From a virus: a stretch of DNA of 64,000 bases. Location of the stretch: the IMG/VR virus record IMGVR_UViG_3300034061_005995, positions 1 to 64,000 of that record, one strand, 5' to 3'. Shown piece by piece: positions 10,916 through 29,894 of the stretch (its first letter is position 1; each line of letters opens with the position of its first letter). Made by a program: the position numbers and the translations under genes. The notes beneath the pieces were generated by a model. The model was given only the letters and a program-made list of their open reading frames with translations, did not search any database and was not told where the DNA came from.

Positions 10916-12010
10916 ATGGATTTTTATATTAAAAAAAATGCGACATTACCAGTAATAAAAATGCTTATAGTAAGAGATGGTAGGAGCGATTATCATAATT
11001 TTGATAATTTATCAAACTCTGAAATATTATTTAGCATGTTTGATATTGAAAAAAAAATAATAAAAACTGCATCGAGACCTACACAAATTGTTATTCAAAA
11101 AAATTCTAAAGGTTATGATGAATATTGGGTTCAATACGCTTTCAAAGCGAGAGATACTAAAACCCCTGGAGTTTTTAAAGCACAATTTTCAATTAAAAAT
11201 TCAACAGGTGAAGTAATATTACCATTAAGTGAGGATGTATTTATATACGTACAAGATAGTTTTGTAAATCTTGAAGAATGCTGTAGAAAAATTCAAATTG
11301 TTAGTCCAACACCGACTTTAACACCAACAGCAACTCCGACACCAACACCTACGCCAACTCCGACACTTATACCATCAACATGTTTTGCATATGTTGTTGC
11401 AGAGCCTCAAGATAGTTTGAACTCATTAACTAATTTAGGTTCTTACATGTATTATGAGGCTGATGGCATTACACCAGATGTTAATGTTGATTGGTATGGA
11501 TTTGGTAACTCTGGTTCATGGGCTGACCCAACATCAATTAATTATTCATATACTTTATCGAAATATATTTCATATAGCGGATTTTCACAATCAGTTGGAA
11601 ATTTTGTATCGCCACAATTAATTAAAGGTGGGATAAATCAAAATGGGTATATTATTGATGATGCTTTTGGTTGTTCAGTAAATCAATATTCATTTGGCTC
11701 AATTGAAGTACCAATTTCATTAGTAAATCCAAATATTCAATATTTATATACAATATGGATTCCTTTAGATTGTGTAAATAATGAAATGGAAAACATGATT
11801 TTAGAAATTGGATATAATTCATCCCCTTGCTCATTTGATGCTGTTGCAACACCTGACCCAATAATATCACAAACAAATGTTACTGTAAGCAATAGTTCAA
11901 CAATACCAACTGGTGAATATAGAGTATTATATTGTTCAAATACTGCACTATTACCTATAACAATTCCAACAAATAATAATATTTATTTCAAAGGGGTTAA
12001 TAAAACATAA
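10916..12010 (+). CDS. BppU-like N-terminal domain fused to a duplicated adhesin domain
   Basis: A 364-residue protein. Residues 1-120 (FYIKKNATLPVIKMLIVRDG onward, with ILFSMFD) resemble the N-terminal domain of siphophage baseplate upper proteins (BppU_N), which docks receptor-binding parts onto the baseplate; the same domain stands alone at 29912-30271. A Thr/Pro linker (TPTLTPTATPTPTPTPTPT) spans about 128-150. Residues 155-364 repeat the C-terminal domain of the preceding protein. It looks like an adaptor carrying an exchangeable adhesin head. The BppU link is an inference from a short motif; the two paralogies are seen directly. Confidence 0.7.
   Translation: MDFYIKKNATLPVIKMLIVRDGRSDYHNFDNLSNSEILFSMFDIEKKIIKTASRPTQIVIQKNSKGYDEYWVQYAFKARDTKTPGVFKAQFSIKNSTGEVILPLSEDVFIYVQDSFVNLEECCRKIQIVSPTPTLTPTATPTPTPTPTPTLIPSTCFAYVVAEPQDSLNSLTNLGSYMYYEADGITPDVNVDWYGFGNSGSWADPTSINYSYTLSKYISYSGFSQSVGNFVSPQLIKGGINQNGYIIDDAFGCSVNQYSFGSIEVPISLVNPNIQYLYTIWIPLDCVNNEMENMILEIGYNSSPCSFDAVATPDPIISQTNVTVSNSSTIPTGEYRVLYCSNTALLPITIPTNNNIYFKGVNKT
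11381..11510 (+). repeat. Dispersed repeat, copy 2 (matches 10276-10405)
   Basis: Second copy of the near-identical DNA block at the start of the shared C-terminal domain, immediately after the Thr/Pro linker. The pair is separated by 1105 bases in direct orientation, so recombination between copies could swap or delete the intervening BppU-like module. Confidence 0.8.
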
Positions 12011-15925: not shown

Positions 15926-16792
15926 ATGGCAGCAATTACAGATTTAAATGATTTAATACAAATAAGTTCAGCATCAGCTGGAACTGAAAATATAATATGG
16001 ACAATTGGTACAACTTTGTCAGGAACAACAACACCCATAGTTAACCCATCCGTTGGTTTTAGTAAATGGTTATTTGATGGGGCTCCAGGAAGAGGTCAAG
16101 TTCCAACAACTGCAGCAACAATTTGTACAAATACTACTGCAGGTGGATTAATGCAATCAACAACATCATCGGGTAAAGAAAAATATTTAATTCAACATGG
16201 AGTATATGGAACAAATTCAGCTTCAATCGGAACATGGATGTTATATGATAGATTGGTTCATGCTGGAGGTTATGATGCAAATATAACATCTGTTCAAAAT
16301 ATTAATACCCCAGCATTAACCAGATATAGTGGAAGTTCAAGTGTTGGTAATAGAATAATGGTTGAAATTTATTCAGAAGTTGGTGGCATAGGACGAGTAT
16401 TACAAATAAATTATACAAACCAAGATGGCGTATCAGGTAGAACCTCATTTTCAAGAATTGGTGTAAGTGCTTCAATTAAAAATGCTGGTAATGCTTATAT
16501 ATGTACACTATATAGTGGAGATACTGGAGTTAGAAGTATTGAAAGTGTACAGATATTGGTAGGTGGTACAGGTGTTGCTGGAAATTTTGGTGTTAGTATT
16601 ATTAGACCATTATCAGCAGTCCAAGTATTACCATCAATGTCAGCAGGTATTAAAGACTTTGCAACAGGGCAACCTGGAATTCCAAAAATTGAAAGTGATG
16701 CATGTTTAACTTATATATATTATTCAGCAGTATCATCAGCAGCATCAAACTTTGAAGATGCATTTGGAGTTTTATCACTAATTGAGAAATAA
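15926..16792 (+). CDS. Tail/fibre-associated protein, paralogue family A, copy 1
   Basis: A 288-residue beta-rich protein starting MAAITDLNDLIQISS. It shares with the next two proteins the core MLYDRLVHAGGYDANITSVQ, then YTNQDGVSGRTSFSRIG and SGDTGVRSIESVQ. The family is common in T4-like and other large marine and freshwater phages as predicted virion proteins, but I cannot name a function. The three genes lie head to tail right behind the fibre gene, suggesting that they form a hetero-oligomer on the fibre or baseplate. One Cys only; no signal peptide or membrane segment. Confidence 0.7.
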   Translation: MAAITDLNDLIQISSASAGTENIIWTIGTTLSGTTTPIVNPSVGFSKWLFDGAPGRGQVPTTAATICTNTTAGGLMQSTTSSGKEKYLIQHGVYGTNSASIGTWMLYDRLVHAGGYDANITSVQNINTPALTRYSGSSSVGNRIMVEIYSEVGGIGRVLQINYTNQDGVSGRTSFSRIGVSASIKNAGNAYICTLYSGDTGVRSIESVQILVGGTGVAGNFGVSIIRPLSAVQVLPSMSAGIKDFATGQPGIPKIESDACLTYIYYSAVSSAASNFEDAFGVLSLIEK

Positions 16793-16793
16793 T

Positions 16794-17654
16794 ATGGCAC
16801 AATTAACAGATTTATCAGATATAATTAATAGATTAACTGGTGGAAATTCAGGTTCACCACAAACATTTTTTTTTATTAAACAACCATTTATAAATGGTGT
16901 TTCAATTTCAAATGCTGCAACTGCAAATAGATGGCAAAGTCTTTGGTTAATAGATGGTGCACCAAGTGGCGGTAATATTCCAGTAAGTGCTGAAACTTGC
17001 ACAAATACCACAATTGGTGGATTAAAACAACTTAATCCAAACTCAGACCAACAACAATGGATGACCAATTTTAACGCAACAATATCACAAAATAATGGAA
17101 TTATAATGTTATATGATAGATTGGTACATTCTGGAGGTTATGTAGCAAATACCACTTCAGTTCAAACTGTTAATACACCCACATTAACAAGATATAGTGG
17201 AACTTCAAGTGTCGGTAATCAAATATTAGTTGAGATTTATTCAAATATTGGTACAACTGCGAGGATTTTAACAATAACATATACAAATCAAGACGGTGTA
17301 TCAGGTAAAACAACAACTGTTGAAATTGGCTCAACCACTGGCAATACCCAATCTGCAGCGTGGTTACCAATTTTAGCATCTGGTGATACTGGAGTTAGAA
17401 GTATTGAAAGTGTTCAATTAAATGGTTCAACAACAACAGCTGGTAATTTTGGTGTTAGTATTATAAGGCCAATAATTATGAGCGATAGTATGTTAAATTT
17501 AGGTTCAAATCAATATTTAACAACAGGTATTCCATCAATACCTGAAATAAAATCTGGTGCTTGTTTAGCATTTTTAATTAATCTAACCAACGCATCAACA
17601 GGTGCCGATTATGTTAATAGTTTTAATGGCCATATACAATTAATAAATAAATAA
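16794..17654 (+). CDS. Tail/fibre-associated protein, paralogue family A, copy 2
   Basis: A 286-residue protein; the ATG at 16794 is chosen because MAQLTDLSDIINRL aligns with the start of copy 1, whereas an upstream TTG would lie inside the previous gene. It has the family core (MLYDRLVHSGGYVANTTSVQ, YTNQDGVSGKT, SGDTGVRSIESVQ). Copies 1 and 2 are clearly closer to each other than to copy 3. The start is two bases after the TAA of copy 1. Function unknown; structural role inferred from its place in the fibre module. Confidence 0.7.
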   Translation: MAQLTDLSDIINRLTGGNSGSPQTFFFIKQPFINGVSISNAATANRWQSLWLIDGAPSGGNIPVSAETCTNTTIGGLKQLNPNSDQQQWMTNFNATISQNNGIIMLYDRLVHSGGYVANTTSVQTVNTPTLTRYSGTSSVGNQILVEIYSNIGTTARILTITYTNQDGVSGKTTTVEIGSTTGNTQSAAWLPILASGDTGVRSIESVQLNGSTTTAGNFGVSIIRPIIMSDSMLNLGSNQYLTTGIPSIPEIKSGACLAFLINLTNASTGADYVNSFNGHIQLINK

Positions 17655-17655
17655 T

Positions 17656-18510
17656 ATGCTTAGATTAAGTTCATATACAGAATATTATAATACATTATCA
17701 GATTATAATACATTTAATACATATTCATCTCGAACAGGTCAAATTGGTAACAGAATGATTGATGGTTTTTATTCACAAACATATCCAAGTGGAACAGCAC
17801 CTACGGTTTATAATTCAATAACTCCAAGAACAATGACAAAAAATGATGTTGGAGCAATACCACTACCTTTAATTTCTAACGGTGGATTTTTGAATATTTT
17901 AGGATATCAAAATTCAACAACCGCAATATCAAATGTCCATATTGTATTTGATAGGTTAGTTGAAGTTGGTGCTATTAGCGCAAATAGTACTTCATTACAG
18001 ACTTTTAGCACTGGTACATTACCAAGATATCAAAATGATAAAAATATTGTTTGTATTGTTGAACCTGGAACAAATTTAGCTTCTGGGACTCAACAAAGAG
18101 CAACACTTACGTATACAAACCAAGATGGTGTATCAGGTAGAACTGGATTTTGTTCAATAGGTGGTGGTGACTTTGGAACAACACATAGTGCAAGATTTCT
18201 TAGATTGCAAGCAGGAGATAGTGGAGTTAGGTCTGTTGAAAGTTTACAACTTGATGGTACAATTTTAGCAACTGCAAATAGAATTAATATTGTATTAGCA
18301 AAATGTCATGGAATGTTTGTTAGTTCAGGTGTATTAATGAATAATACATCAGCATTTGCAAATTTAATAAATGGCAATATGGTTGGTGGATTAACTAATA
18401 TTCATAGCGATGCCTGTTTATTTTTTGTTAGAGCGATATTTAACGTAACTGGTTTTAATGACGGTACAATCATGGGTAATGTTATAATTAAAGAAAATTA
18501 TGAGATATAA
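17656..18510 (+). CDS. Tail/fibre-associated protein, paralogue family A, copy 3
   Basis: A 284-residue divergent member: a different N-terminus (MLRLSSYTEYYNTLSDYNTF) but the same core with FDRLVEVGAISANSTSLQ, YTNQDGVSGRTGFCSIG and AGDSGVRSVESLQLDG. It starts two bases after the TAA of copy 2. The series of three non-identical, equally long paralogues suggests an old duplication with subunit specialisation. Function unknown. Confidence 0.68.
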   Translation: MLRLSSYTEYYNTLSDYNTFNTYSSRTGQIGNRMIDGFYSQTYPSGTAPTVYNSITPRTMTKNDVGAIPLPLISNGGFLNILGYQNSTTAISNVHIVFDRLVEVGAISANSTSLQTFSTGTLPRYQNDKNIVCIVEPGTNLASGTQQRATLTYTNQDGVSGRTGFCSIGGGDFGTTHSARFLRLQAGDSGVRSVESLQLDGTILATANRINIVLAKCHGMFVSSGVLMNNTSAFANLINGNMVGGLTNIHSDACLFFVRAIFNVTGFNDGTIMGNVIIKENYEI

Positions 18511-18697: not shown

Positions 18698-18978
18698 AAA
18701 TTGAGAATTATATAACTGATAATGGAAAATTAGCTAATAGACTTGAGTTAGAAACTTCTTTTTATTATTTAAGTCAATGGTTTAATATTATTGCATATTT
18801 CTATAATGATGAGGTATTGGTATCTGTAAAAGAAATTGATATAACACCAAAAGAGGTTGATGTTTGGATGGATATGGCCAAACAATACCCTGAAAAAGCA
18901 ACATTTTTAAATTTTAGTTTAATTACTCAATGGTTTTGTGAAACATATAATGTCACTATTATTGATTTAGAGATTTAA
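18694..18978 (+). CDS. Small hypothetical phage protein
   Basis: A 94-residue protein starting MKIENYITDNGKLANRLELE, rich in Trp, Phe and Tyr, probably a compact alpha/beta domain. The ATG at 18694 overlaps the TGA of the Trp-rich gene; a GGAGG run about 11 bases upstream is one of few Shine-Dalgarno-like sequences in the window. Its 3' end overlaps the convergent glycosyltransferase gene by 20 bases, with no terminator between them. No family recognised. Confidence 0.6.
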   Translation: MKIENYITDNGKLANRLELETSFYYLSQWFNIIAYFYNDEVLVSVKEIDITPKEVDVWMDMAKQYPEKATFLNFSLITQWFCETYNVTIIDLEI

Positions 18979-21247
18979 TTATTTCATTAAATACTTGAAT
19001 GGGTTGTATTGATTTTTGGCAAATATGTTGTTTATTTGTACCTTTATAAATTGGGCACCAATCCCAATCACCAGCATCAAAAACAAAAGTTTCGTGATTC
19101 CAGCAAAATATACAATTATCATTATAAATTTTTGTAATATTTGTACTAAATTCATGACCATCTTTAGAAAAACCATTAATCATATATGTATGTTTATTTA
19201 AGGCCCAATTAAGCCAAGATAATCCAGAACCAAGGCCAACAAATCCTGAAGCGTTTTGTAAAATATTTGCAACATAATTTAAAGATTTACCCCAAATATT
19301 TTTTGTGTTTGGTATATTAAATTTATTTTTAGTTATGCTAATAACATCATAACCAATTTCATTCAATAATTTAGCTAAAATTGGCCAATACTCATACGGC
19401 CATTCTTTACAACCAGCTGTGGAATTTGGTGCAAATACAAAATATGGTTTATTAAAAGATATATTTTCATTTTTAACATTTATTCCATAATTAAGTTCAT
19501 AAAAATCTAACCCTAAAACATCTGTTGCAGTTTGTTGTAAAGGTATTAAATTAACTTGGTTTTTATTTCTATCAGTATCATCCCATTTACCATCTTTTTT
19601 AAACCAACCAATTTTATAAACAGTTTTACAGTTAACTGTACTACCTGGGGTTACAAATTTAACATCATTATATTCTGGTAAACCTTCAAAAAAACTATTA
19701 TAAAATGTTGATAAAATCACATTACAATTATGTTTTTTCCCAAAATCTACAGCGTATGGTACCCAAGCAATATTATCACCTAAAGATTTTGACTCAATAG
19801 ATATTAAAACATTTTGATTTTCTAAAGAAAATTCATCATAAATCTGATTATTTATTTTTATTTGCCATGGTACATAATATTTTATACCACAAGCTATCCA
19901 CATATTATTATGTATAACTCCTGAGTAAAAAATGTGTCCTGTTGATTTATCAATAAATTCTACATAATATTCGGTATTATAATCTCCAATAATTTCAACT
20001 CTTGGACCATCAATATACGAGATATAAATTTTATTATCATCATTTTTTTTATTATTTTGATTTTTAATCAAAAAATCTTGTATTTCTAAAATAGCATTTT
20101 TAGCAACTCTATCCCAATTAAAGTTTTCAGCAATTATTATTGATTCATTTAATGCTTTATTCTTATAATATTCAAAATTCTGATATGATTCTCGTATTTT
20201 ATCTTTTAAATCTTCAAAATCTGGTTCATAATAATTACCAACAATTTTATTAAAATGATTATAATAACTATTTGATGCTGGTAATTCACCAATAATTTTC
20301 ACTGGTAATCCTAACCCTTCAGCAAATTCTAATTGACCTGAACAATTAGAATATATTGAAGGTATACCACAAGCCATAGCTTCAATTAATGGTAAATTCC
20401 AACCTTCAGAACGGGCACAAGATAAAAATACATTACAAGATTTTAAAATTGATATATATTCTTCTTTAGAAGGAAAATTTAAAATTTTAATTCTGCTATC
20501 ATTTAAACCATAAAAGTCTAATCTTTCTTTAGTATTTTTTAACCCATCATTTGAAAATGGGTTATCAATTGATACTATTAAATCAACAGGTTCACTTTTA
20601 TCAAATGACTCTAAAAAAGCCTTTATAATTTCAAGAGTTGATTTACGATAATCCCACCTACCCACTAAAAAAAATTTAAATCTACCGTCAGATGTTAAAT
20701 TATGTTTAACATTTTCAGGAAAAAACAAATCAATATTAACACCTTCAGGAACAACTCGAATTTTATCTTCAGGGTATCCTTGTTTAATAGTAACTTCTTT
20801 TTGCCATTTTGATGGAACCCATAGTTCATCAAATTCTTTTAATTTATTAAAAAAATCTTCTGGTTGTAATGTAGATTCCCAAACGTTATATGCAATTTTA
20901 GGTCCAACATATTTATCATAAAAAACGTGATGATAAGTCTCGCATAAAACAATATTTAAATCTTGATGAAAATTTTTAAATTCTTCAGGATATATTACAT
21001 AATCACTTCTTGAGTCATCTTTATTAAATAAAATTTGTTGATATAGAATTTTTTTATCGACATCATTAATATATGGCTCATTATTATGGGGTTCTAAATT
21101 ATAACCTGACCAACTATTTCCAACTGAAAAATTTCTAAATTTAACATTTGCGTAATTGGATAAGGCTCTAAAAAATTCTCTTGTATGTTCGTTATAACCA
21201 GTTGTTCCTATATATGAACCATGGCCAAAAATATTAATTTTACGCAT
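18959..21247 (-). CDS. GT4 glycosyltransferase fused to autotransporter-heptosyltransferase-like domain
   Basis: A 762-residue two-enzyme protein. Residues 1-395 are a GT4 enzyme: INIFGHGSYIGTTGYNEHTR at the start, FFLVGRWDYRKSTLEIIKAF, and the donor-binding SCARSEGWNLPLIEAMACGIP. Residues about 470-762 resemble the bacterial autotransporter heptosyltransferase family (TibC/Aah): SLGDNIAWVPYAVDF, FAPNSTAGCKEWPYEYW, GSGLSWLNWAL, and a C-terminal finger with four cysteines (C712, C715, C731, C743) around FDAGDWDWCP and KGTNKQHIC. That family attaches heptose to Ser residues of surface repeat proteins and binds a metal through such a finger. Phage target is unknown; the Ser-rich fibre is an obvious candidate. 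It is convergent with the fibre operon. Confidence 0.75.
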   Translation of the reverse strand: MRKINIFGHGSYIGTTGYNEHTREFFRALSNYANVKFRNFSVGNSWSGYNLEPHNNEPYINDVDKKILYQQILFNKDDSRSDYVIYPEEFKNFHQDLNIVLCETYHHVFYDKYVGPKIAYNVWESTLQPEDFFNKLKEFDELWVPSKWQKEVTIKQGYPEDKIRVVPEGVNIDLFFPENVKHNLTSDGRFKFFLVGRWDYRKSTLEIIKAFLESFDKSEPVDLIVSIDNPFSNDGLKNTKERLDFYGLNDSRIKILNFPSKEEYISILKSCNVFLSCARSEGWNLPLIEAMACGIPSIYSNCSGQLEFAEGLGLPVKIIGELPASNSYYNHFNKIVGNYYEPDFEDLKDKIRESYQNFEYYKNKALNESIIIAENFNWDRVAKNAILEIQDFLIKNQNNKKNDDNKIYISYIDGPRVEIIGDYNTEYYVEFIDKSTGHIFYSGVIHNNMWIACGIKYYVPWQIKINNQIYDEFSLENQNVLISIESKSLGDNIAWVPYAVDFGKKHNCNVILSTFYNSFFEGLPEYNDVKFVTPGSTVNCKTVYKIGWFKKDGKWDDTDRNKNQVNLIPLQQTATDVLGLDFYELNYGINVKNENISFNKPYFVFAPNSTAGCKEWPYEYWPILAKLLNEIGYDVISITKNKFNIPNTKNIWGKSLNYVANILQNASGFVGLGSGLSWLNWALNKHTYMINGFSKDGHEFSTNITKIYNDNCIFCWNHETFVFDAGDWDWCPIYKGTNKQHICQKSIQPIQVFNEIIKSLNQ

Positions 21248-21286: not shown

Positions 21287-22219
21287 ATGGAGATTATGAG
21301 AAAATTGGCATTAATTTCTTCATTTTGTGATACACAATTAAAAAAAGAAATTTTGTTAAAAAACTTGAGTATTCTTAAATCTTTAGGTGTTGATACTTTA
21401 TTAATAAGTCCTTTAACATTAGATGAATCAATTATAAATAATTGTGATTTTTATTTTAATACTAAAGAGAATCCTATACTTACATGGCCTCAAAGAATTT
21501 ATGACCATTGGCTAATAACTAAAGATGATTCAGGTAAAAATATAAAATTACATAGAGGGTTACCAGATTATGGCTGGGCGGCAATGTATCAATTAAAAAA
21601 ATTGATACAGATTGGGTTAAGTTTCGAATATGATTTATATTACCCGATGATATATGATTTAAATATAAATGATTTTGTAGTCAATGAAATTAATTCAAAC
21701 ACCCAAGATATATTTTATAGAAGAGTTGACCCAAAAAATAATACAAATTTTTGGTCAGCAACTTTACATTTCATGTCATTAACAAGGAATAAATTAGAAA
21801 TAATTGAAAAATTAATAACTTTAGATAGTTACTTGCAAAAAAGCGATTTTCCTGAAAAACATGCAGAAACTTGGGCTAAAAATTTAAATATAACATTATC
21901 TGAAAATGCTGTATCTGACAGCATATTTTATTGGGAAAACATTAATTTTTTTAACTATTCAGTAGATAATGATTACTGTTTATTTTTTAATAAAAACGAT
22001 GATATTTTTAATAAGTTATGTTTATTTGTATATAATGTAAATAAAAATTGTGATATTAAAATATCAATAAATAATAAAATATATAATTATTCAAATTTTA
22101 TACAGACTGATTACAATTTTAATGATGTTAATAATTTTGAAATTATAAAAAATAACATTTCAATAAACTATACAAAAGAATATCAAAATTCAATAAGAAA
22201 TTTAATATATTATGAATGA
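21287..22219 (+). CDS. Uncharacterised protein of glycosyltransferase island
   Basis: A 310-residue protein. The start KLALISSFCDTQLKKEILLKN and VDTLLISPLTLDESIINNCDF look like the first Rossmann strands of a glycosyltransferase, followed by KENPILTWPQRIYDHW, but I see no clear DxD or donor site. The C-terminal 80 residues are Asn-rich beta strands. A second ATG at 21296 has GGAG five bases upstream and gives MRKLALISS; it may be the true start. It overlaps the next gene by eight bases. A sugar-related role is inferred mainly from context. Confidence 0.55.
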   Translation: MEIMRKLALISSFCDTQLKKEILLKNLSILKSLGVDTLLISPLTLDESIINNCDFYFNTKENPILTWPQRIYDHWLITKDDSGKNIKLHRGLPDYGWAAMYQLKKLIQIGLSFEYDLYYPMIYDLNINDFVVNEINSNTQDIFYRRVDPKNNTNFWSATLHFMSLTRNKLEIIEKLITLDSYLQKSDFPEKHAETWAKNLNITLSENAVSDSIFYWENINFFNYSVDNDYCLFFNKNDDIFNKLCLFVYNVNKNCDIKISINNKIYNYSNFIQTDYNFNDVNNFEIIKNNISINYTKEYQNSIRNLIYYE

Positions 22220-23189
22220 TTTAATCTTTGTAACCGCACAACCAGATGTTGAATATTTTCACTGGCAATGTGAAATATACGGATATAATTTTACAAAAAT
22301 GGGTATTAAAAAAAATAATATTCATATGATTTTTGCATTAGTTAATGGCGCAACTGAACCTTCTGAAGGTGTAAAATATTTAAAAAACATTGGTTATAAT
22401 GTACATTATTATATTGATAATAGAGATTCTAAACATTACATTCCAAGTATAAAACCTTATTTAATATCAAAATGGTTGGAAGAATTTCCAGAATATGGTA
22501 AATTGTTTTTTTTACACGATGCTGATATCATATTTAGAGTACTACCTGATTTAAGCAAATATCTTAAAGATGATATTTGTTATATGTCCGATACCAGAAG
22601 TTATATCGGATACAATTATATTTCAGATTGTTGTGGTAGATATGAAGCACAACACCCAACATCTGAAAAATTACAATTACTAAATGAAATGTGTAATGTT
22701 ATTGGATTAGATATTGATTGCGTTAGAAATAACCAAGATAATTCTGGTGGTGGGCAATATATCATTAAAAAAACATCTGCAGAGGATTGGAATAAAATAT
22801 ATAGAGATTCTAATACTTTATATAATACAATGTTGGATTATCAAAATAGATTTCCAATAAATCCTGGACAAATACAATTTTGGACTGCAGAAATGTGGTC
22901 TCTTCTATGGAATTTATGGTGTTTTGGTAAAGATACAAAATTAATTAGCGAATTAGATTTTTCATGGGCAACTGATAATATTGAAACTTATGAAAAAAAA
23001 CCAATATTACATATGGCTGGAGTTACTGATAATTTGAAAGGTGTTAAATTTTATAAAGGTGATTTTATCGCAACGAATCCCATTAAAAAGTTAGAAGAAG
23101 ATATTAACTATTTTAACTATATTGATATAAATAGTTCAACAACAAAATATATTGAAATTATGAAAGAAATTTTATTATCTAAAAATTAA
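22212..23189 (+). CDS. GT-A-type glycosyltransferase, possibly peptidyl-Ser/Hyp transferase-like
   Basis: A 325-residue protein. DIIFVTAQPD-like start with EYFHWQCEIYGYNF, a metal-binding DxD at residues 103-105 (FLHDADIIF), and PGQIQFWTAEMWSLLWNLW near 218-236. The combination of an aromatic W-Q segment near residue 18, a central DAD and a Trp-rich EM segment recalls eukaryotic peptidyl-serine galactosyltransferases and hydroxyproline arabinosyltransferases. This is a weak, by-eye resemblance. A GT-A fold is likely; substrate is not. Located in the plus-strand glycosyltransferase island just before a Thr/Pro-rich adhesin. Confidence 0.55.
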   Translation: MNDLIFVTAQPDVEYFHWQCEIYGYNFTKMGIKKNNIHMIFALVNGATEPSEGVKYLKNIGYNVHYYIDNRDSKHYIPSIKPYLISKWLEEFPEYGKLFFLHDADIIFRVLPDLSKYLKDDICYMSDTRSYIGYNYISDCCGRYEAQHPTSEKLQLLNEMCNVIGLDIDCVRNNQDNSGGGQYIIKKTSAEDWNKIYRDSNTLYNTMLDYQNRFPINPGQIQFWTAEMWSLLWNLWCFGKDTKLISELDFSWATDNIETYEKKPILHMAGVTDNLKGVKFYKGDFIATNPIKKLEEDINYFNYIDINSSTTKYIEIMKEILLSKN

Positions 23190-23197
23190 GAATAGAA

Positions 23198-23205
23198 TAT
23201 TTATA
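23198..23205 (+). promoter_or_regulatory. TATTTATA motif upstream of LamG adhesin
   Basis: TATTTATA followed by TTAAAT, ending seven bases before the ATG at 23213. Same octamer and orientation as at other transcription-unit starts. Promoter function inferred. Confidence 0.35.
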
Positions 23206-23212
23206 TTAAATT

Positions 23213-25678
23213 ATGGCGTGTTATAGTGGCTTAACCAATGCACCAAATTGGTATTATCAAGATTGTAATGGAAGTATTAGAAGTGGTAGTACTGTAGGTC
23301 TAACAGTATGTTATGATGATACAACAATAGTACCTGTTAATATTACAACATCTATGGTATCATGTCTTAGTAACGAATATAGTTTTAGTGCATGCTGTTA
23401 TCCATATGATGTTTTTGGAATAATTAATATTCCAACAAGTTTAAATATTGGTGATACATATTATGTTGAAGTTGATGGATTTTCGGGTTGTACAATTGTT
23501 GGAAATGATGTATATATTGTTCAATATTCTGAATCATCAATTACAGGGCCTTTTACAGATTGTGAAGATTGTGCAACAAGCATTCCATATCCATGTGCAA
23601 CGCCAACTCCTACACCAACACCAACATTGACACCAACTCCTACACCAACTCCTACTGTAACCCCTACACAAACGCCAACTCCTACGCCAACTCCTACGGG
23701 ATTTTGTGGAATTTTAGATTATTGTTTGGATACTGATGGAATATCTGTATATGACGGTAATTATACTTATGCTGGTACATATAATTCATTAAATTATTAT
23801 ACTGGTGGAACTTCACCTATAGGATATATTTTTAATGATGGTACAAAATGGTGTTTATCAAATTCTTTAGGCGGGTCTTGTATTTTATTTGGTAAAACCC
23901 CATGTTATAATGTTTGTCCAGATATTTGTGATGAATTAATACCTGGAGTATGTGTAACTTCAACTACAACAACTTCAATATGTGATACTGTAAATTTTGA
24001 AGCTTTATTTAATTGTAATGTTACACCAACTCCAACAACTACACCAACTCCAACTCCAACATCATCAGTTGGAACATGTTTTTCAGCAATTACTGACACT
24101 CCTAATTGGAGTTATTATGATTGTTGCGGCAATTTAATAACTGGTACAACAATAGGTTTAGATATTTGTTATAATAGTTCATTACCATTTTCTGGTATTG
24201 CAACATATCCAGATGTTTGTGTTGTTAATTGCCCAACTCCAACACCAACACCAACTCCAACAAGTATTTGCACATTATCGTCAATATCTTTAAGCGCAAC
24301 AACATTACCAACATCTACTCCAACAGCAACACCAACTCCTACACCAACAGTTGTTAGAAATCAATGTTTTTCTGGTGATGTTGCATTTGTATTATTTGAA
24401 GAAGCATTTTCATGCCCTGAAACTAAAAAATTAATTAGTTGTTCAAATAATGAAATTTACTATGTTAATGAACCTTTAATATTGGGCTCAGAAGTTGTTC
24501 AGATTAATCAAACATTCTTAGGTTTAATTAATGAACAATTTGATTGTTATAGATATTTAGGATTAGAAAAAATATCAAGTAATGGTATTCTATTAAATAT
24601 TTATGATATTTTTGGATATGACTGTAATACATGTATTTTAACTACAACAACAACATTACCCCCACCAACAGCTACACCAACGGTAACGCCAACAGCTACA
24701 CCAACGGTAACGCCAACAGCTACACCAACAGCTACACCAACAGCTACACCAACGGCAACGCCAACAGCTACACCAACAGCTACACCAACAGCTACACCAA
24801 CGGCAACGCCAACAGCTACACCAACAGCTACACCAACGGCAACGCCTACGCCAACAGCAACAGTTTCATGTTTACCTGCAGCATCTTTAGTTAGTGATGG
24901 CCTTAGAGCTTATTTAGACCCAGCAATATGTAGCGGTTTTACTTTAGCGACATATACTCTTGAAGATGCTACAGGAAACTTTAGCGGTAACACTTTTGAT
25001 GTTAGTCCACAATTTAAAACAACAACTGGAAACCAATCATATAGTGCATATACAAGCGGTGGAACCTATAGTACTATAGGTAGTGGTTCGATAACAATTG
25101 AACCATCTAAATTATATTTTTATGGTAGAAGCGGCTCAGGTGTTAATTTCTCGGCAACATCTTTCTCAATTTGGTTCTATCCATTTAGTGCAGTTACTTC
25201 AGGAACATCAGCCCAAAGTCTTATTCAACCAAGATTATCTTATGATACAAATGGAATAAACTATTTAGGTATCGGTGCTGCTGTTGGGGCACTTAATAAT
25301 GAGATTTTAGGTTTAATTTCAACAGTTGCAAATACTAATAGACGTACAGCAGTAGATTCATCAGGATTTACCCAATTTAGTGCCAACACTTGGTATAATA
25401 TCACATGTAACTGGAATTCTGGCGATTCAAGGTATGATATTTATATAAATAACGTTCAACAAAATGTTTTTGCTCCAGCGGCTGGTCACATACCAGTAAT
25501 TGAAGGTAATGCGTTAATCTTAGGTGCGGTTGTCGGATATGCTGGTGACGTAAACGCTCAACAAGCAAGAGCATTCTTTAATGGTAATATTGGTGAATTG
25601 CATATTTATACAAGAGCATTGACACCGACAGAATTAACAGATAACTACAATGCTTTAAAATCGAGATACGGTTATTAA
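23213..25678 (+). CDS. Thr/Pro-rich modular adhesin with C-terminal LamG domain
   Basis: An 821-residue protein built of small Cys-containing modules joined by Thr/Pro linkers (TPTPTPTLTPTPTPTPTVTP near 133-160 and others). Modules CYSGLTNAPNWYYQDCNG (residue 3) and CFSAITDTPNWSYYDCCG (about 288) are internal duplicates. A long ATPT minisatellite linker covers about 487-550. Residues 555-821 form a concanavalin/LamG-type domain: FSIWFYPFSA, NTWYNITCNWNSGDSRYDIYINNVQ, and GNIGELHIYTRALTPTELTDNYNAL. Probably a surface-exposed receptor-binding or host-glycan-binding protein, with linkers suited to O-glycosylation. Confidence 0.75.
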   Translation: MACYSGLTNAPNWYYQDCNGSIRSGSTVGLTVCYDDTTIVPVNITTSMVSCLSNEYSFSACCYPYDVFGIINIPTSLNIGDTYYVEVDGFSGCTIVGNDVYIVQYSESSITGPFTDCEDCATSIPYPCATPTPTPTPTLTPTPTPTPTVTPTQTPTPTPTPTGFCGILDYCLDTDGISVYDGNYTYAGTYNSLNYYTGGTSPIGYIFNDGTKWCLSNSLGGSCILFGKTPCYNVCPDICDELIPGVCVTSTTTTSICDTVNFEALFNCNVTPTPTTTPTPTPTSSVGTCFSAITDTPNWSYYDCCGNLITGTTIGLDICYNSSLPFSGIATYPDVCVVNCPTPTPTPTPTSICTLSSISLSATTLPTSTPTATPTPTPTVVRNQCFSGDVAFVLFEEAFSCPETKKLISCSNNEIYYVNEPLILGSEVVQINQTFLGLINEQFDCYRYLGLEKISSNGILLNIYDIFGYDCNTCILTTTTTLPPPTATPTVTPTATPTVTPTATPTATPTATPTATPTATPTATPTATPTATPTATPTATPTATPTPTATVSCLPAASLVSDGLRAYLDPAICSGFTLATYTLEDATGNFSGNTFDVSPQFKTTTGNQSYSAYTSGGTYSTIGSGSITIEPSKLYFYGRSGSGVNFSATSFSIWFYPFSAVTSGTSAQSLIQPRLSYDTNGINYLGIGAAVGALNNEILGLISTVANTNRRTAVDSSGFTQFSANTWYNITCNWNSGDSRYDIYINNVQQNVFAPAAGHIPVIEGNALILGAVVGYAGDVNAQQARAFFNGNIGELHIYTRALTPTELTDNYNALKSRYGY
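24667..24861 (+). repeat. Ala-Thr-Pro-Thr minisatellite
   Basis: About 195 bases of 12-base units (GCTACACCAACA and GCAACGCCAACG variants) encode (Ala-Thr-Pro-Thr)n. Variant units appear in an ordered, repeated pattern, which points to expansion by slippage or unequal exchange. It forms the stalk before the LamG domain. Confidence 0.88.
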
Positions 25679-25720
25679 AATATTTATTTAATTTTTTTTT
25701 TCATTATTTTAATAGTAATA

Positions 25721-26971
25721 ATGAAAATTTTTATCCAAATTGCCAGTTATCGTGACCCTCAATTATTACAAACAATTAAAAGTTGTTTAGAAAATTCAAG
25801 ATACCCTGAGAATTTAGTATTTTCAATTGCAAGGCAATATCATAATGATGATACCTTTGACGATTTATCAGAATATTATAATGATGATAGATTCAAAATA
25901 TTGAACATCCCGCATGAAGAATCTCTTGGTGTTTGTTGGGCAAGAAATCTAACACAACAATTATATAATGGTGAAGAATATACATTACAAATTGATTCAC
26001 ATATGAGATTTTCCAAAGATTGGGATATCACATTAATTGAAATGATTCAACAATTAAAAAATAATGGGTATTTAAAACCATTATTGACAGGATATATGCC
26101 ATCATTTGACCCAGATAATGACCCAAATAGTCGTATTCAAACACCCTGGAGAATGGTTTTTGACAGATTTATCCCTGAAGGTGCGGTATTTTTTTTACCT
26201 GAAGTAATTCCAGGATATTTAAATTTAACTGAACCTATACATTCAAGATTTTATTCTGCACATTTTTGTTTTACAATTGGAGATTTTGTTAAAGAAGTTC
26301 AACATGACCCATTAATGTATTTTCATGGTGAAGAAATATCAATTGCTGCAAGAGCTTACACACATGGTTATGATTTATTTCATCCACATAAAGTTGTATT
26401 ATGGCACGAATATACAAGAAAAAATCGTGTTAAACAATGGGACGATGACCCAAAATGGACGGAAAAGAATGATAAATCACATTTAAGGAATAGAAAACTC
26501 TTTAGCATGGATGGTGAAATGTATAATCCTGCCGAATTTGGAATTTATGGATTTGGAAATATAAGAACTTTACGAGATTACGAGATATATAGTGGAATAC
26601 ATTTTGGTAAACGAGCTGTTCAACAATATACTTTAGATAAAAAATATCCACCCAATCCTTATAACTTTAAAAACGTATCTGAATGGGAAGATTCATTCTC
26701 AAGAATTTTTAAACACTGTATAGATTTACATAAAGATTTTGTAAATTTTGATGATTATGAATTTTGGGTTGTAGCATATCATGATGAGCAAGATAATACA
26801 ATATTTAGACAAGATTGTGGTATTAGTGAAATTAAACAATTAAAATCCTCAAATGAAGAATACTATAAAATTTGGAGAGAATTTCAAACTACTAAACAAC
26901 CAAGAAAATGGGTTGTTTGGCCATATTCAAAATCTAAAGGGTGGTGTGATAAAATAGAAAAAATCTTATGA
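25721..26971 (+). CDS. Skp1-type N-acetylglucosaminyltransferase family protein (GlcNAc, PF11397-like)
   Basis: A 416-residue protein with the hallmarks of the family typified by Dictyostelium Gnt1, which adds GlcNAc to a hydroxyproline of Skp1: IFIQIASYRDPQLLQTIKSC at the start, SLGVCWARNLTQQLYNGEEYTLQIDSHMRF around 70-100 (metal-binding DSH in place of DxD), WDITLIEMIQQL, and a later HGEEISIAARAYTHGYDLFHPHK. Family membership is strong by eye. In the cytoplasm of an infected cell it would transfer GlcNAc from UDP-GlcNAc to an acceptor, plausibly a Thr/Pro-rich phage protein. No prolyl hydroxylase is visible in the window. Starts a run of five overlapping genes. Confidence 0.82.
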   Translation: MKIFIQIASYRDPQLLQTIKSCLENSRYPENLVFSIARQYHNDDTFDDLSEYYNDDRFKILNIPHEESLGVCWARNLTQQLYNGEEYTLQIDSHMRFSKDWDITLIEMIQQLKNNGYLKPLLTGYMPSFDPDNDPNSRIQTPWRMVFDRFIPEGAVFFLPEVIPGYLNLTEPIHSRFYSAHFCFTIGDFVKEVQHDPLMYFHGEEISIAARAYTHGYDLFHPHKVVLWHEYTRKNRVKQWDDDPKWTEKNDKSHLRNRKLFSMDGEMYNPAEFGIYGFGNIRTLRDYEIYSGIHFGKRAVQQYTLDKKYPPNPYNFKNVSEWEDSFSRIFKHCIDLHKDFVNFDDYEFWVVAYHDEQDNTIFRQDCGISEIKQLKSSNEEYYKIWREFQTTKQPRKWVVWPYSKSKGWCDKIEKIL

Positions 26972-27540
26972 AGTTAATCGTTGTTATTTGTCATTATCGT
27001 GAAAATTTAAATTGGCTTAAAGATTTAAAACACCCTTATATTGTATATAATAAAAATCCAAATAATAATCATTTATTTGAGAATAATTTACCAAATGTTG
27101 GTTTTGATACTGTTGTTTATTTAAAATATATTATTGATAACTATAATAATTTACCTGATTATATTTGTTTCTCTCAAGATAACCCATTTTATCATTGTTC
27201 AACAATAATTGATAAAATTAACAATTTTAACTTTGATTCAGATTTTGTACCTTTAGGTATTTCATATGTTAGGGACCAAAAAGATATTTTAGAGAAAACT
27301 ATTAAATATGCTGAAGAAAATGGTATTAAATTAAATATTCCAATTAAATTTATAAATTCTGCACAATGTATTGTATCAAAAAAACTAATACTTAAGAATA
27401 CTAAAGAGTTTTACGAAAAAATAAAAGAAACTCTACCAAAAAATGAAATAATAAACCAAACTAATTATATAGTCGAATATTTATGGCCAACAATTTTAGG
27501 CTTTAATGAAGAATTAAAAATTAGTTTTTATAATTGTTAA
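26968..27540 (+). CDS. DUF3431-like protein
   Basis: A 190-residue protein overlapping the preceding gene by four bases (ATGA). LIVVICHYRENLNWLKDL, YIVYNKN, and LPNVGFDTVVYLKYIIDNYNNLPDYICFSQDNPF match the pattern of DUF3431, a family found next to glycosyltransferases and thought to be GT-like. The end (VEYLWPTILGF) also fits. It likely acts in the same glycan pathway as its neighbours; the reaction is unknown. Confidence 0.65.
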   Translation: MKLIVVICHYRENLNWLKDLKHPYIVYNKNPNNNHLFENNLPNVGFDTVVYLKYIIDNYNNLPDYICFSQDNPFYHCSTIIDKINNFNFDSDFVPLGISYVRDQKDILEKTIKYAEENGIKLNIPIKFINSAQCIVSKKLILKNTKEFYEKIKETLPKNEIINQTNYIVEYLWPTILGFNEELKISFYNC

Positions 27541-28355
27541 TGATGAAAAAAGCTCTAATAGGATTATCCAATAATATTTTGACTAATATTAATAAAATTA
27601 AAGTATGGTCAAAAAGTTTTAAACAATATTCAGATGGTGACATAATATTATTATGTGCAAATACTAATAAATTAGAAATGGATTTATGTAAGTCTCTTGG
27701 AATAATTACAGTTCCAGTTTTAGTTAACGATATAAATTATATTAATCATAAAAGATTATTAATTACCAAAGAAGTATTAGAAACTTATAAGTATGACGTA
27801 TGTATAATAACTGATGTTTTTGATGTTGTATTTCAATCGGACCCATTTAAAAAATTAGATTTTGAAAATTTTGATATTTTTGTTAGCGGTGAGGGCGTAA
27901 ATGTTAATCAAGAACCTTGGAATTCAGATAATATTAATAAACTTTTTCCACAACATTTTAATGCTTGTGTAAATACTGAAATTATTAATTCTGGAGTAAT
28001 TGCTGGTAAACGCTTATCACTAATTAAATTACTTGATATGATGTATAATTTATGTCAAGAAAGTAATAATAATCATAATATTAAAGACCAAGCCGCATTA
28101 ATTGTTTTAGTATCATTAAACTTAATACCCAATTTAAAAATATTTAATTTGGATGATGGATGGGCAATGCATTGTGCTGTTGCAGGTCCAACACAATTTT
28201 TTGATGCTTGGGGATTTAGAAATAATTTGAAATATGGAATACCCCAATTAATTAATAAAACTATATGTACTAAAACTGGCGATGTTTTTGACATTGTTCA
28301 TCAATTTAATCGTATAGATAAATGGAATGAAATTTTAACAAATGAATACATTTAA
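27540..28355 (+). CDS. Putative GT-A glycosyltransferase
   Basis: A 271-residue protein. After KKALIGLSNNILTNINKIKVW it shows the donor-site segment YDVCIITDVFDVVFQSDPF (acidic D-x-x-D like DxD) around residue 87-105 and IINSGVIAGKRLSLIKLLDMM, which is typical of GT8/GT77-like or DUF-type nucleotide-diphospho-sugar transferases, plus a final DIVHQFNR. The ATG at 27540 overlaps the TAA of the preceding gene by one base; a second ATG follows at once. Enzymatic role inferred from fold motifs. Confidence 0.6.
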   Translation: MMKKALIGLSNNILTNINKIKVWSKSFKQYSDGDIILLCANTNKLEMDLCKSLGIITVPVLVNDINYINHKRLLITKEVLETYKYDVCIITDVFDVVFQSDPFKKLDFENFDIFVSGEGVNVNQEPWNSDNINKLFPQHFNACVNTEIINSGVIAGKRLSLIKLLDMMYNLCQESNNNHNIKDQAALIVLVSLNLIPNLKIFNLDDGWAMHCAVAGPTQFFDAWGFRNNLKYGIPQLINKTICTKTGDVFDIVHQFNRIDKWNEILTNEYI

Positions 28356-29106
28356 AACTTGTAAAGTTATTTGTTTTACACCACAAACATATAACTCATA
28401 TTTTGGGTGGTGGAAATCATTATTAAATACTTCAAATACATTTTTAATTGTTGATAACAGCTCAAATGCAAAAATTGATTATTCTGGGTTTATATATAAT
28501 GAAGATGATATTCGAAAAAATTTTAATTTTAAAGAAACCGTTAATAGAAATCATTATTGGAATGCACAAGGAAATAAAAATATAATTTGGTTTTATGCCT
28601 ATTTAAGAATGTTAAATTATTATATAAATAATAACAAATATGATTATTATTGGTTTTTTGATGATGATGTTTATTGTAACAATTGGGAACATTTCTTAAA
28701 TTCTTTTGAAGACGATGATTCAGACTTTTTATCATATTTTTTATTTAAGAATTTAAATGTAGAATCTTATCCTGAAATCCCAAAAGTTGATAATAAAATG
28801 TTTTCTGGAAATTTATGGTTTCAAAGATTTCCATCACATGGTGATAAGCTTGAACCTAACACTAATGATTTATTTGGTTCTTTTTTTCCAATTGTAAGAT
28901 TTTCTAAGAGAGCGTTAGAAAAATTAAAAGAACTAACATTAAACGATTTTCATGGATATGGTGAAGGGTTTGTTCCAACAACGTTAGCCAAATATGGTTA
29001 TAAAATTAATACAATATTCAATAACGAAAATAAATCAAAGTATTTCGATACTAATAAAATTAATATTACACATAAAAATATAAAAATTAATTGGGAATGG
29101 CTTTAA
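28342..29106 (+). CDS. Putative GT-A glycosyltransferase with DDD motif
   Basis: A 254-residue protein, overlapping the previous gene by 14 bases. The strand YYWFFDDDVYCNNWEHFL (about 109-126) is a clear metal-binding acidic motif after a GT-A beta strand, and YGEGFVPTTLAKYGYKI at about 213-230 resembles a catalytic-loop region following the acceptor site. Many Asn/Phe/Tyr residues reflect the low GC content. The family is not identified; a glycosyltransferase role is likely. Confidence 0.6.
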   Translation: MNTFKTCKVICFTPQTYNSYFGWWKSLLNTSNTFLIVDNSSNAKIDYSGFIYNEDDIRKNFNFKETVNRNHYWNAQGNKNIIWFYAYLRMLNYYINNNKYDYYWFFDDDVYCNNWEHFLNSFEDDDSDFLSYFLFKNLNVESYPEIPKVDNKMFSGNLWFQRFPSHGDKLEPNTNDLFGSFFPIVRFSKRALEKLKELTLNDFHGYGEGFVPTTLAKYGYKINTIFNNENKSKYFDTNKINITHKNIKINWEWL

Positions 29107-29894
29107 ATAATCCTGTAATAGTAACTGCTCTATTTGATATTGGTAGAGAAACTTGGAATAATTATACAATGTCATATCATACATATTGTTGGTGGGCAAG
29201 AAACACTTTATCATTAGACTCAAACATTGTTGTATATACTGAAGAAAAATTCTTAACTGAGCTTAAGAATTATAGACGCGAATTTGACCCGAATTTAGAA
29301 AAGACAATTTTTATTACAAAAAAAATAACAGAATTAGATTGTTATACAATTTATTATGAAAAATTAAAAACATTAATGGAATCTGAAAAATTTATTAATA
29401 AAATAAGTTTTAAGAATGTTCCAGAAATGTGTCAACCACTATATAACATTATTATGTTTAACAAAGTATTCTTTTTAAAAGATACTATTGATAATAAATA
29501 TTTTAATAATGATGTTGTAATATGGGCCGATGCTGGAGGATTAAGGGATGATATTAATGTATATAAAAATACTACTTGGCCAAAAATTACAAAATTAAAT
29601 CTATTAGATAAAAATGTTGTAACAGTATTTTCACACAACCTTGATGTAAATATTACAGATTTTGAATATCATGCATTATCACAAATTAGAAATATCCAGG
29701 GTACTTGTTTTTTTGTTCCGTCTCATTTGATTGATATTTTAATAACTGTTTTAAATCAAACTATTAATGACGCAATAAATAATTCATATATCGGAAGTGA
29801 TGAAAAAATATTTGATATTTGCTATACCAAGCATAAGTCATTGTTTAATTTAATAAAAAGTAATTGGAGAGAATATTTTAATTATTTTAAATAA
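29097..29894 (+). CDS. HtrL/YibB-like protein
   Basis: A 265-residue protein. PVIVTALFDIGRETWNNYTM, the SLDSNIVVYTEE strand, and the later NDVVIWADAGGLRDD fit the HtrL_YibB family, which in enterobacteria lies in the LPS core locus and is predicted to be a GT-A-like transferase. The ATG at 29097 is used; an upstream TTG is unlikely. The start overlaps the previous gene by 10 bases. Last gene of the glycosyltransferase island; a TATTTAT motif and a BppU-like gene follow. Confidence 0.65.
   Translation: MALNNPVIVTALFDIGRETWNNYTMSYHTYCWWARNTLSLDSNIVVYTEEKFLTELKNYRREFDPNLEKTIFITKKITELDCYTIYYEKLKTLMESEKFINKISFKNVPEMCQPLYNIIMFNKVFFLKDTIDNKYFNNDVVIWADAGGLRDDINVYKNTTWPKITKLNLLDKNVVTVFSHNLDVNITDFEYHALSQIRNIQGTCFFVPSHLIDILITVLNQTINDAINNSYIGSDEKIFDICYTKHKSLFNLIKSNWREYFNYFK

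Follow-up and report, generated by a model that had tools for sequence, protein, structure and literature searches.

Why would a phage encode a glycosyltransferase (GT) of the GT4 family fused to a relative of the bacterial enzymes that modify adhesins, and which protein would such an enzyme act on? This question is raised by one open reading frame (ORF) in the 64,000-nucleotide stretch of DNA analysed here, hereafter the window. The source record is a linear virus of 67.9 kb with 28% G+C and contractile-tail genes. An initial annotation, made from the sequence alone, had read the product as a GT4 enzyme joined to an autotransporter-heptosyltransferase-like domain with a four-cysteine finger. 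Our analysis confirmed that observation and supported its interpretation in part.

A complete GT4 domain fused to a TibC-type domain

The extent of the ORF, its minus-strand orientation and its ATG start were as first described (Table 1). Judged by the residues it keeps, the product is predicted to be a catalytically complete GT4 enzyme joined to a full TibC-type domain. The GT4 half matched PF00534 (Glycos_transf_1) at 52.7 bits against a cut-off of 26.4, and residues 51–386 matched the phage GT family phrog_2170. R197, K202 and the E281-x7-E289 pair are invariant among its relatives; its catalytic residues are thus kept, in line with the GT4 domain having been called complete. An AlphaFold model of the fusion protein, built with 47 sequences in the alignment, had a mean pLDDT of 89.6 and a pTM of 0.58, with the placement of the two halves relative to each other uncertain. 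Retaining GT4 enzymes ranked after TibC among the PDB fold matches of this model, and the matches included SdgB (PDB 7vfm), a GT4 enzyme whose structure was determined together with an SD-repeat peptide.

Table 1 Features of the fusion gene and its surroundings in the window.
Feature	Position	Strand	Basis
GT4–TibC-like fusion protein, 762 aa	18959..21247	−	ORF with ATG start; full-length relatives in 11 viral contigs, 48–69% identity
GT4 domain, residues 1–386 (~1–390)	20090..21247	−	PF00534 4.6e-14; phrog_2170 1.2e-32; residue conservation
TibC-like (BAHT-like) domain, residues 403–756, ~354 aa	18980..20041	−	TIGR04414; PDB 4rap; TM 0.83 to TibC
TibC-like N-terminal β-barrel, residues 406–472	19832..20032	−	PF21129 TibC_1st 17.8 bits, below cut-off; strands in model
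D491, counterpart of TibC catalytic base Asp110	19775..19777	−	alignment; conserved 68/68
Site of missing β-hairpin thumb, residues 637–654, 9 residues shorter than TibC	19286..19339	−	alignment
Four-Cys finger, residues 712–743, spacing as in TibC iron finger	19019..19114	−	alignment
Proposed acceptor: collagen-like fibre, 1290 aa	12035..15907	+	PF01391 9.2e-64; phage fibre families; composition
Neighbouring cassette with further GT-like genes	21287..29894	+	family matches
PF11397 GlcNAc-type GT	25721–26971	+	
phrog_1579 glycosyltransferase	27534–28355	+	
HtrL_YibB	29091–29894	+	
Pro/Thr-repeat protein ending in concanavalin-like LamG domain	23213–25678	+	
Pro/Thr-repeat protein	10916–12010		

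The C-terminal part, first put at about 290 residues, is in fact longer and includes the TibC-like N-terminal β-barrel. It matched TIGR04414 (hepto_Aah_TibC) with E = 3e-56 and 191 bits, under the curated cut-off of 200 bits; a close relative, L005, reached 220 bits. In the PDB, its sequence matched TibC (E = 9.5e-35). Consistently, TibC was the top PDB fold match of the model (TM 0.83 normalised by TibC, rmsd 2.4 Å over 382 columns, approximately the whole of TibC). Assignment to the plain GT9 family (WaaC/WaaF type) was rejected, since PF01075 (Glyco_transf_9) gave 34.3 bits and TIGR02193 28.6 bits against the 191 bits of TIGR04414, and TibC was the best fold match. The profile scores support the earlier reading of this half as TibC/Aah-like rather than plain GT9.

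Retained and missing elements of the TibC-like half

Residue conservation was counted over an alignment of 68 phage TibC-like domains from the wide scan. C712, C715, C731 and C743, located where they had been reported, align with C339/C342/C358/C370 of TibC with the same spacing (C-x2-C-x15-C-x11-C), and all four are kept in 68/68 domains. In TibC, these cysteines are the ferric-iron ligands, and mutation of any one of them abolished iron binding and activity (PMC4358343). By alignment, the phage cysteines correspond to these iron-finger ligands, with putative metal binding; model confidence in the finger region is moderate (block pLDDT about 60–85). Asp110, Thr226, Lys230 and Trp305 of TibC correspond to D491, T610, K614 and W678, which are likewise kept in every one of the 68 domains.

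Two elements described as conserved across TibC's family (PMC4358343), the thumb and Arg286, are absent. The window protein has lost the β-hairpin thumb, as have 65/68 phage domains, the three exceptions being second, tandem genes. The thumb residues F265 and V266 build the dodecamer ring of TibC, and the mutations F265D and V266D broke both ring and activity (PMC4358343). F368, the third dodecamer-contact residue of TibC, is His in the window protein and in 63 of the 68 domains. Arg286 contacts the adenine of ADP in TibC, and R286A abolished or largely lowered activity (PMC4358343); its position is occupied by V659 in the window protein and carries Arg in 0/68 phage domains. Since TibC needs both the thumb and Arg286, the phage enzyme must assemble differently, a TibC-type dodecameric ring not being expected without a thumb, and it may use another donor. 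The heptosyltransferase-like label thus holds for fold and key residues, but the domain is not of the classical autotransporter type.

Fusions of this kind are not rare in phages and form their own clade

A first scan returned 11 viral relatives that span nearly the whole fusion protein, and a profile scan, environmental relatives included, found at least 589 related viral loci. Among the best 80 of these at least 589 loci, nearly all encode GT4–BAHT fusions where the contig permits a view; the search for further phage fusions proposed in the initial annotation thus showed that they are not rare. An assembly error or one-off event as the origin of the fusion was ruled out, as the fusion is kept in dozens of contigs. 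Fusions in archaeal or deltaproteobacterial bins (L023, L030, L033) were rejected as cellular and are read as viral because their contigs hold virion proteins.

The phage fusions group in one clade of the tree (support 100/100), with the basal branching order not settled. TibC, the E. coli AIDA-linked enzymes and the Pandoraea and Schwartzia proteins form a separate clade (support 100/99), and the window protein falls outside this autotransporter clade. In two E. coli plasmids, the gene for the classical enzyme is directly followed by that for the AIDA-I adhesin. No autotransporter lies beside the enzyme in the window, where it is flanked directly by small paralogues and GT-like genes.

Several variants were seen. 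Two loci (L062:6135-9083 and L013:4750-8430) encode three-part fusions with an FkbM methyltransferase between the GT4 and TibC-like halves; L013 is from the Microcystis phage Mel-JY01, whose annotation shows this arrangement and which also has Gly-Ser/Thr repeats. In L007:7442-8881, a PIG-L deacetylase follows the TibC-like half. A second TibC-like gene stands right behind the fusion in four contigs (L002:8301-9185, L036:9071-9967, L038:9086-9970, L055:9056-9952); these second genes lack the N-terminal barrel, have a thumb-like insertion and form their own long-branched clade. TibC-like enzymes also occur in the phages L014 (LR756501.1, 735 kb) and L015 (LR756504.1, 636 kb). The 735-kb record contains more than 1100 matches to the strict Gly-Ser/Thr pattern, and the GT4 part of its fusion has diverged too far to be matched by the GT4 model made for this analysis.

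Standalone cellular relatives lie near Gly-Ser/Thr repeat proteins

The cellular set comprised the 11 genomes of the profile scan in which a standalone thumb-less relative lies on a contig read as cellular (L017, L019, L021, L022, L024, L025, L027, L028, L029, L031, L032). Each of the 11 encodes a Gly-[Ser/Thr]-Ser repeat protein within 5.1 kb of the enzyme, and 10 do so within 1 kb; L022 satisfies a looser repeat rule only. This locus is from Methylobacter G007, whose long GTS run lies on a contig other than the enzyme's and which is counted only through the looser repeat. Judged by eye, most partners either carry a signal peptide or are small lipoproteins in which a lipobox is followed by a Gly-rich spacer, the repeat and an acidic tail.

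When a strict DNA pattern of six triplets was applied, 12/19 relative-bearing genomes matched, mostly beside the enzyme; the G007 match among them is the one on a different contig, and the match in G001 is counted without mapping to the enzyme's contig. Because reversing the pattern does not give a neutral control for DNA encoding Gly-Ser/Thr, other genomes of one class served as controls. A genuine Gly-Ser/Thr repeat was present in 2/273 of these, against the 12/19 (p = 7e-15, the genomes not being independent); seven other control matches do not encode Gly-Ser/Thr and were discounted. No relative of comparable score was found in the two repeat-positive control genomes.

The cellular relatives fall mainly in a methanotroph-type and a lipoprotein-type clade, plus L017, and their partner architectures differ. 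Five of these thumb-less enzymes score well above the TIGR04414 cut-off and carry the NCBIfam autotransporter name. No sibling of the fusion's GT4 was present in the loci of the cellular standalone enzymes. In three gammaproteobacterial units (L024, L025, L032), the standalone TibC-like gene is accompanied by a DUF6502 gene and by one or two genes for Gly-Ser/Thr lipoproteins, with DUF6502 homologues in common at 55% identity. In the methanotroph-type loci L021, L029 and L031, a subtilase (S8) and a Gcw_chp gene lie near the TibC-like gene and a secreted Gly-Thr/Ser protein. In L029, from Methylomicrobium, the repeat protein and the standalone enzyme make up a two-gene unit.

The window fibre and repeat partners in other phages

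The Ser-repeat fibre that the initial annotation placed next to the gene is real, though not adjacent: 3 kb separate the two, with three paralogous ORFs (15926–18510) and one small ORF between them. The three tandem paralogues share 33–46% identity and have no family match. The fibre contains 172 Gly-X-Y triplets in runs of at least five, with Ser at Y in 163 and Ser or Thr at X in 149; these triplets hold a single Pro and neither Lys nor Arg. Ser-rich triplets with almost no Pro should form a weak triple helix. Beyond the genes listed in Table 1, the region 25721–28355 encodes a DUF3431 protein and contains a weak, below-cut-off match to the GT domain of the collagen-lysine enzyme PLOD.

Many other phage loci also encode a Gly-Ser/Thr repeat within a few kb of the fusion. 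The strict repeat occurred in 16/21 fusion-bearing phage records of at least 30 kb versus 7/22 polymerase-related records without the enzyme (p = 0.006); a few of the records nearly duplicate one another, and any of them may be incomplete, including the five without a strict repeat. When only polymerase-related phages were compared, no association was seen (3/6 with the enzyme versus 7/22 without, p = 0.63). Gly-Ser/Thr fibres are common in these phages anyway, so the phage evidence by itself is only suggestive and the link between enzyme and fibre drawn from phages alone is weak. Taken with the cellular loci, comparative genomics backs the earlier proposal of a Ser-rich repeat surface protein as partner, but the partners carry Gly-Ser/Thr triplet repeats and are not β-helical autotransporters.

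Proposed function and alternatives

With moderate confidence, we favour a bifunctional glycosyltransferase that O-glycosylates Ser/Thr in the Gly-[Ser/Thr]-Ser triplets of the collagen-like fibre encoded by the phage itself, the TibC-like half starting the glycan and the GT4 half extending it. Counting against this view are the loss of the thumb and Arg286, the lack of association within polymerase-related phages, the fusion-bearing records without a strict repeat, and the Pro/Thr-repeat proteins of the window as other conceivable targets. The fibre would be decorated inside the infected cell, ahead of virion assembly. The thumb-less TibC-like half would bind the repetitive protein through its iron-finger-like module and transfer the first sugar with D491 as base, after which the tethered GT4 half would add a second sugar onto the first; the largest TibC-like assembly expected would be a back-to-back dimer. 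We infer the acceptor, the sugar, the order of the steps and the oligomer. The role of facing the protein and initiating the glycan most likely falls to the TibC-like half, because its cellular counterparts stand beside a repeat protein without a GT4 sibling; the GT4 half would then most likely be the extender, as this family often adds to existing glycans. The further GT-like genes of the cassette fit a longer glycan, and glycans on the Pro-poor, Ser-rich triplets could stiffen or shield the fibre.

An alternative is that the enzyme alters LPS or another surface glycan of the host while the infection proceeds, for instance to keep other phages out. GTs in the fibre regions of pelagimyophages have been published as modifiers of host LPS (PMC7029224), and LPS is commonly built by GT4 and GT9-like enzymes. 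We nonetheless consider this role unlikely, since the characterised members of the TibC-like half's family modify proteins, the iron finger, with which TibC binds its protein acceptor, is kept, and the standalone thumb-less relatives adjoin repeat proteins rather than LPS genes.

The same chemistry might instead be directed at another virion protein. The gene is flanked by two Pro/Thr-repeat proteins, which are possible alternative acceptors, and the paralogues between fibre and enzyme are further candidates. The strict Gly-Ser/Thr repeat is missing from some phages with the fusion, and the passage of PMC12619734 that cites Freeman 2023 has the capsid and tail tube of mycobacteriophages glycosylated. 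No Pro/Thr repeats turned up when the other loci were screened for them, whereas repeats of the Gly-Ser/Thr type are recurrent in both bacteria and phages, which makes such an acceptor distinctly improbable.

It is very improbable that the TibC-like half merely binds the repeat and delivers a GT4 half that does the chemistry; the fold match to SdgB and the lost Arg286 would suit such a module, but a mere binder would not need the D110, T226, K230 and W305 equivalents kept in 68/68 domains. Least credible of all is a classical dodecameric heptosyltransferase acting on a β-helical strand-loop-strand protein as the NCBIfam name implies, because despite the TIGR04414 match, the iron finger and the catalytic Asp, the protein scores below the curated cut-off, lacks thumb, F368 and Arg286, and falls outside the autotransporter clade.

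Returning to fibre glycosylation, a broader reading has, in our estimate, just short of an even chance: TibC-like enzymes outside the autotransporter branch may constitute a system devoted to the O-glycosylation of Gly-[Ser/Thr]-Ser collagen-like proteins, common to bacterial lipoproteins or secreted proteins and phage fibres, from which phages would have made a two-enzyme fusion with no need for a dodecamer and, with Arg286 lost, perhaps with a donor other than ADP-heptose. A possible clue to the donor was discarded: matches to TIGR02199 (heptose-phosphate adenylyltransferase-like) in 6/23 fusion-bearing IMG records versus 1/28 controls were below cut-off, the model matches many unrelated genomes, and the window's record had none.

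If these readings are correct, a common type of repeat fibre in aquatic phages would be glycosylated by an enzyme that the phage itself encodes and that is related to one modifying bacterial adhesins; this would put a known enzyme family to a new use. Hundreds of phage GTs now guessed to alter host LPS would gain a function, and glycosylation would suggest itself as a means of stabilising or shielding collagen-like repeats that are poor in Pro. The NCBI name 'autotransporter strand-loop-strand O-heptosyltransferase' would then mislead for a large thumb-less branch.

Comparison with known systems

Phage sequences of the TibC-like kind are not new, as one phage entry in a viral structure library has already been named Glycosyltransferase Aah/TibC automatically. 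The thumb-less branch appears to be new, as does its association with Gly-Ser/Thr repeats; no paper in the literature searched joined heptosyltransferase, collagen-like and glycosyltransferase. We know of no TibC-like enzyme in the virion glycosylation of mycobacteriophages. That system is similar in that phage-encoded GTs decorate virion proteins, and differs in its targets, given as capsid and tail tube where PMC12619734 cites Freeman 2023.

Among cellular enzymes, the thumb-less TIGR04414 members that stand alone in methanotrophs and other bacteria share the thumb-less BAHT-like domain and the nearby Gly-Ser/Thr repeat partner; they differ in having no GT4, in a partner that belongs to the cell and is in most cases a lipoprotein or secreted, and in that some keep Arg286. 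SdgB, a GT4 fold acting on a Ser-repeat protein, has no TibC-like partner domain and a different repeat. The closest characterised likeness is to TibC/AAH (BAHT; TIGR04414; PDB 4rap, 4rb4; PMC4358343), which shares with the phage protein the fold, the four-Cys spacing, the catalytic Asp, the donor-site Thr, Lys and Trp, and the N-terminal barrel. Unlike TibC/AAH, the phage protein is fused to a GT4 domain, lacks the thumb, F368 and Arg286, and belongs to a separate clade, and the partners of the thumb-less relatives are Gly-Ser/Thr triplet repeats rather than SLS autotransporters.
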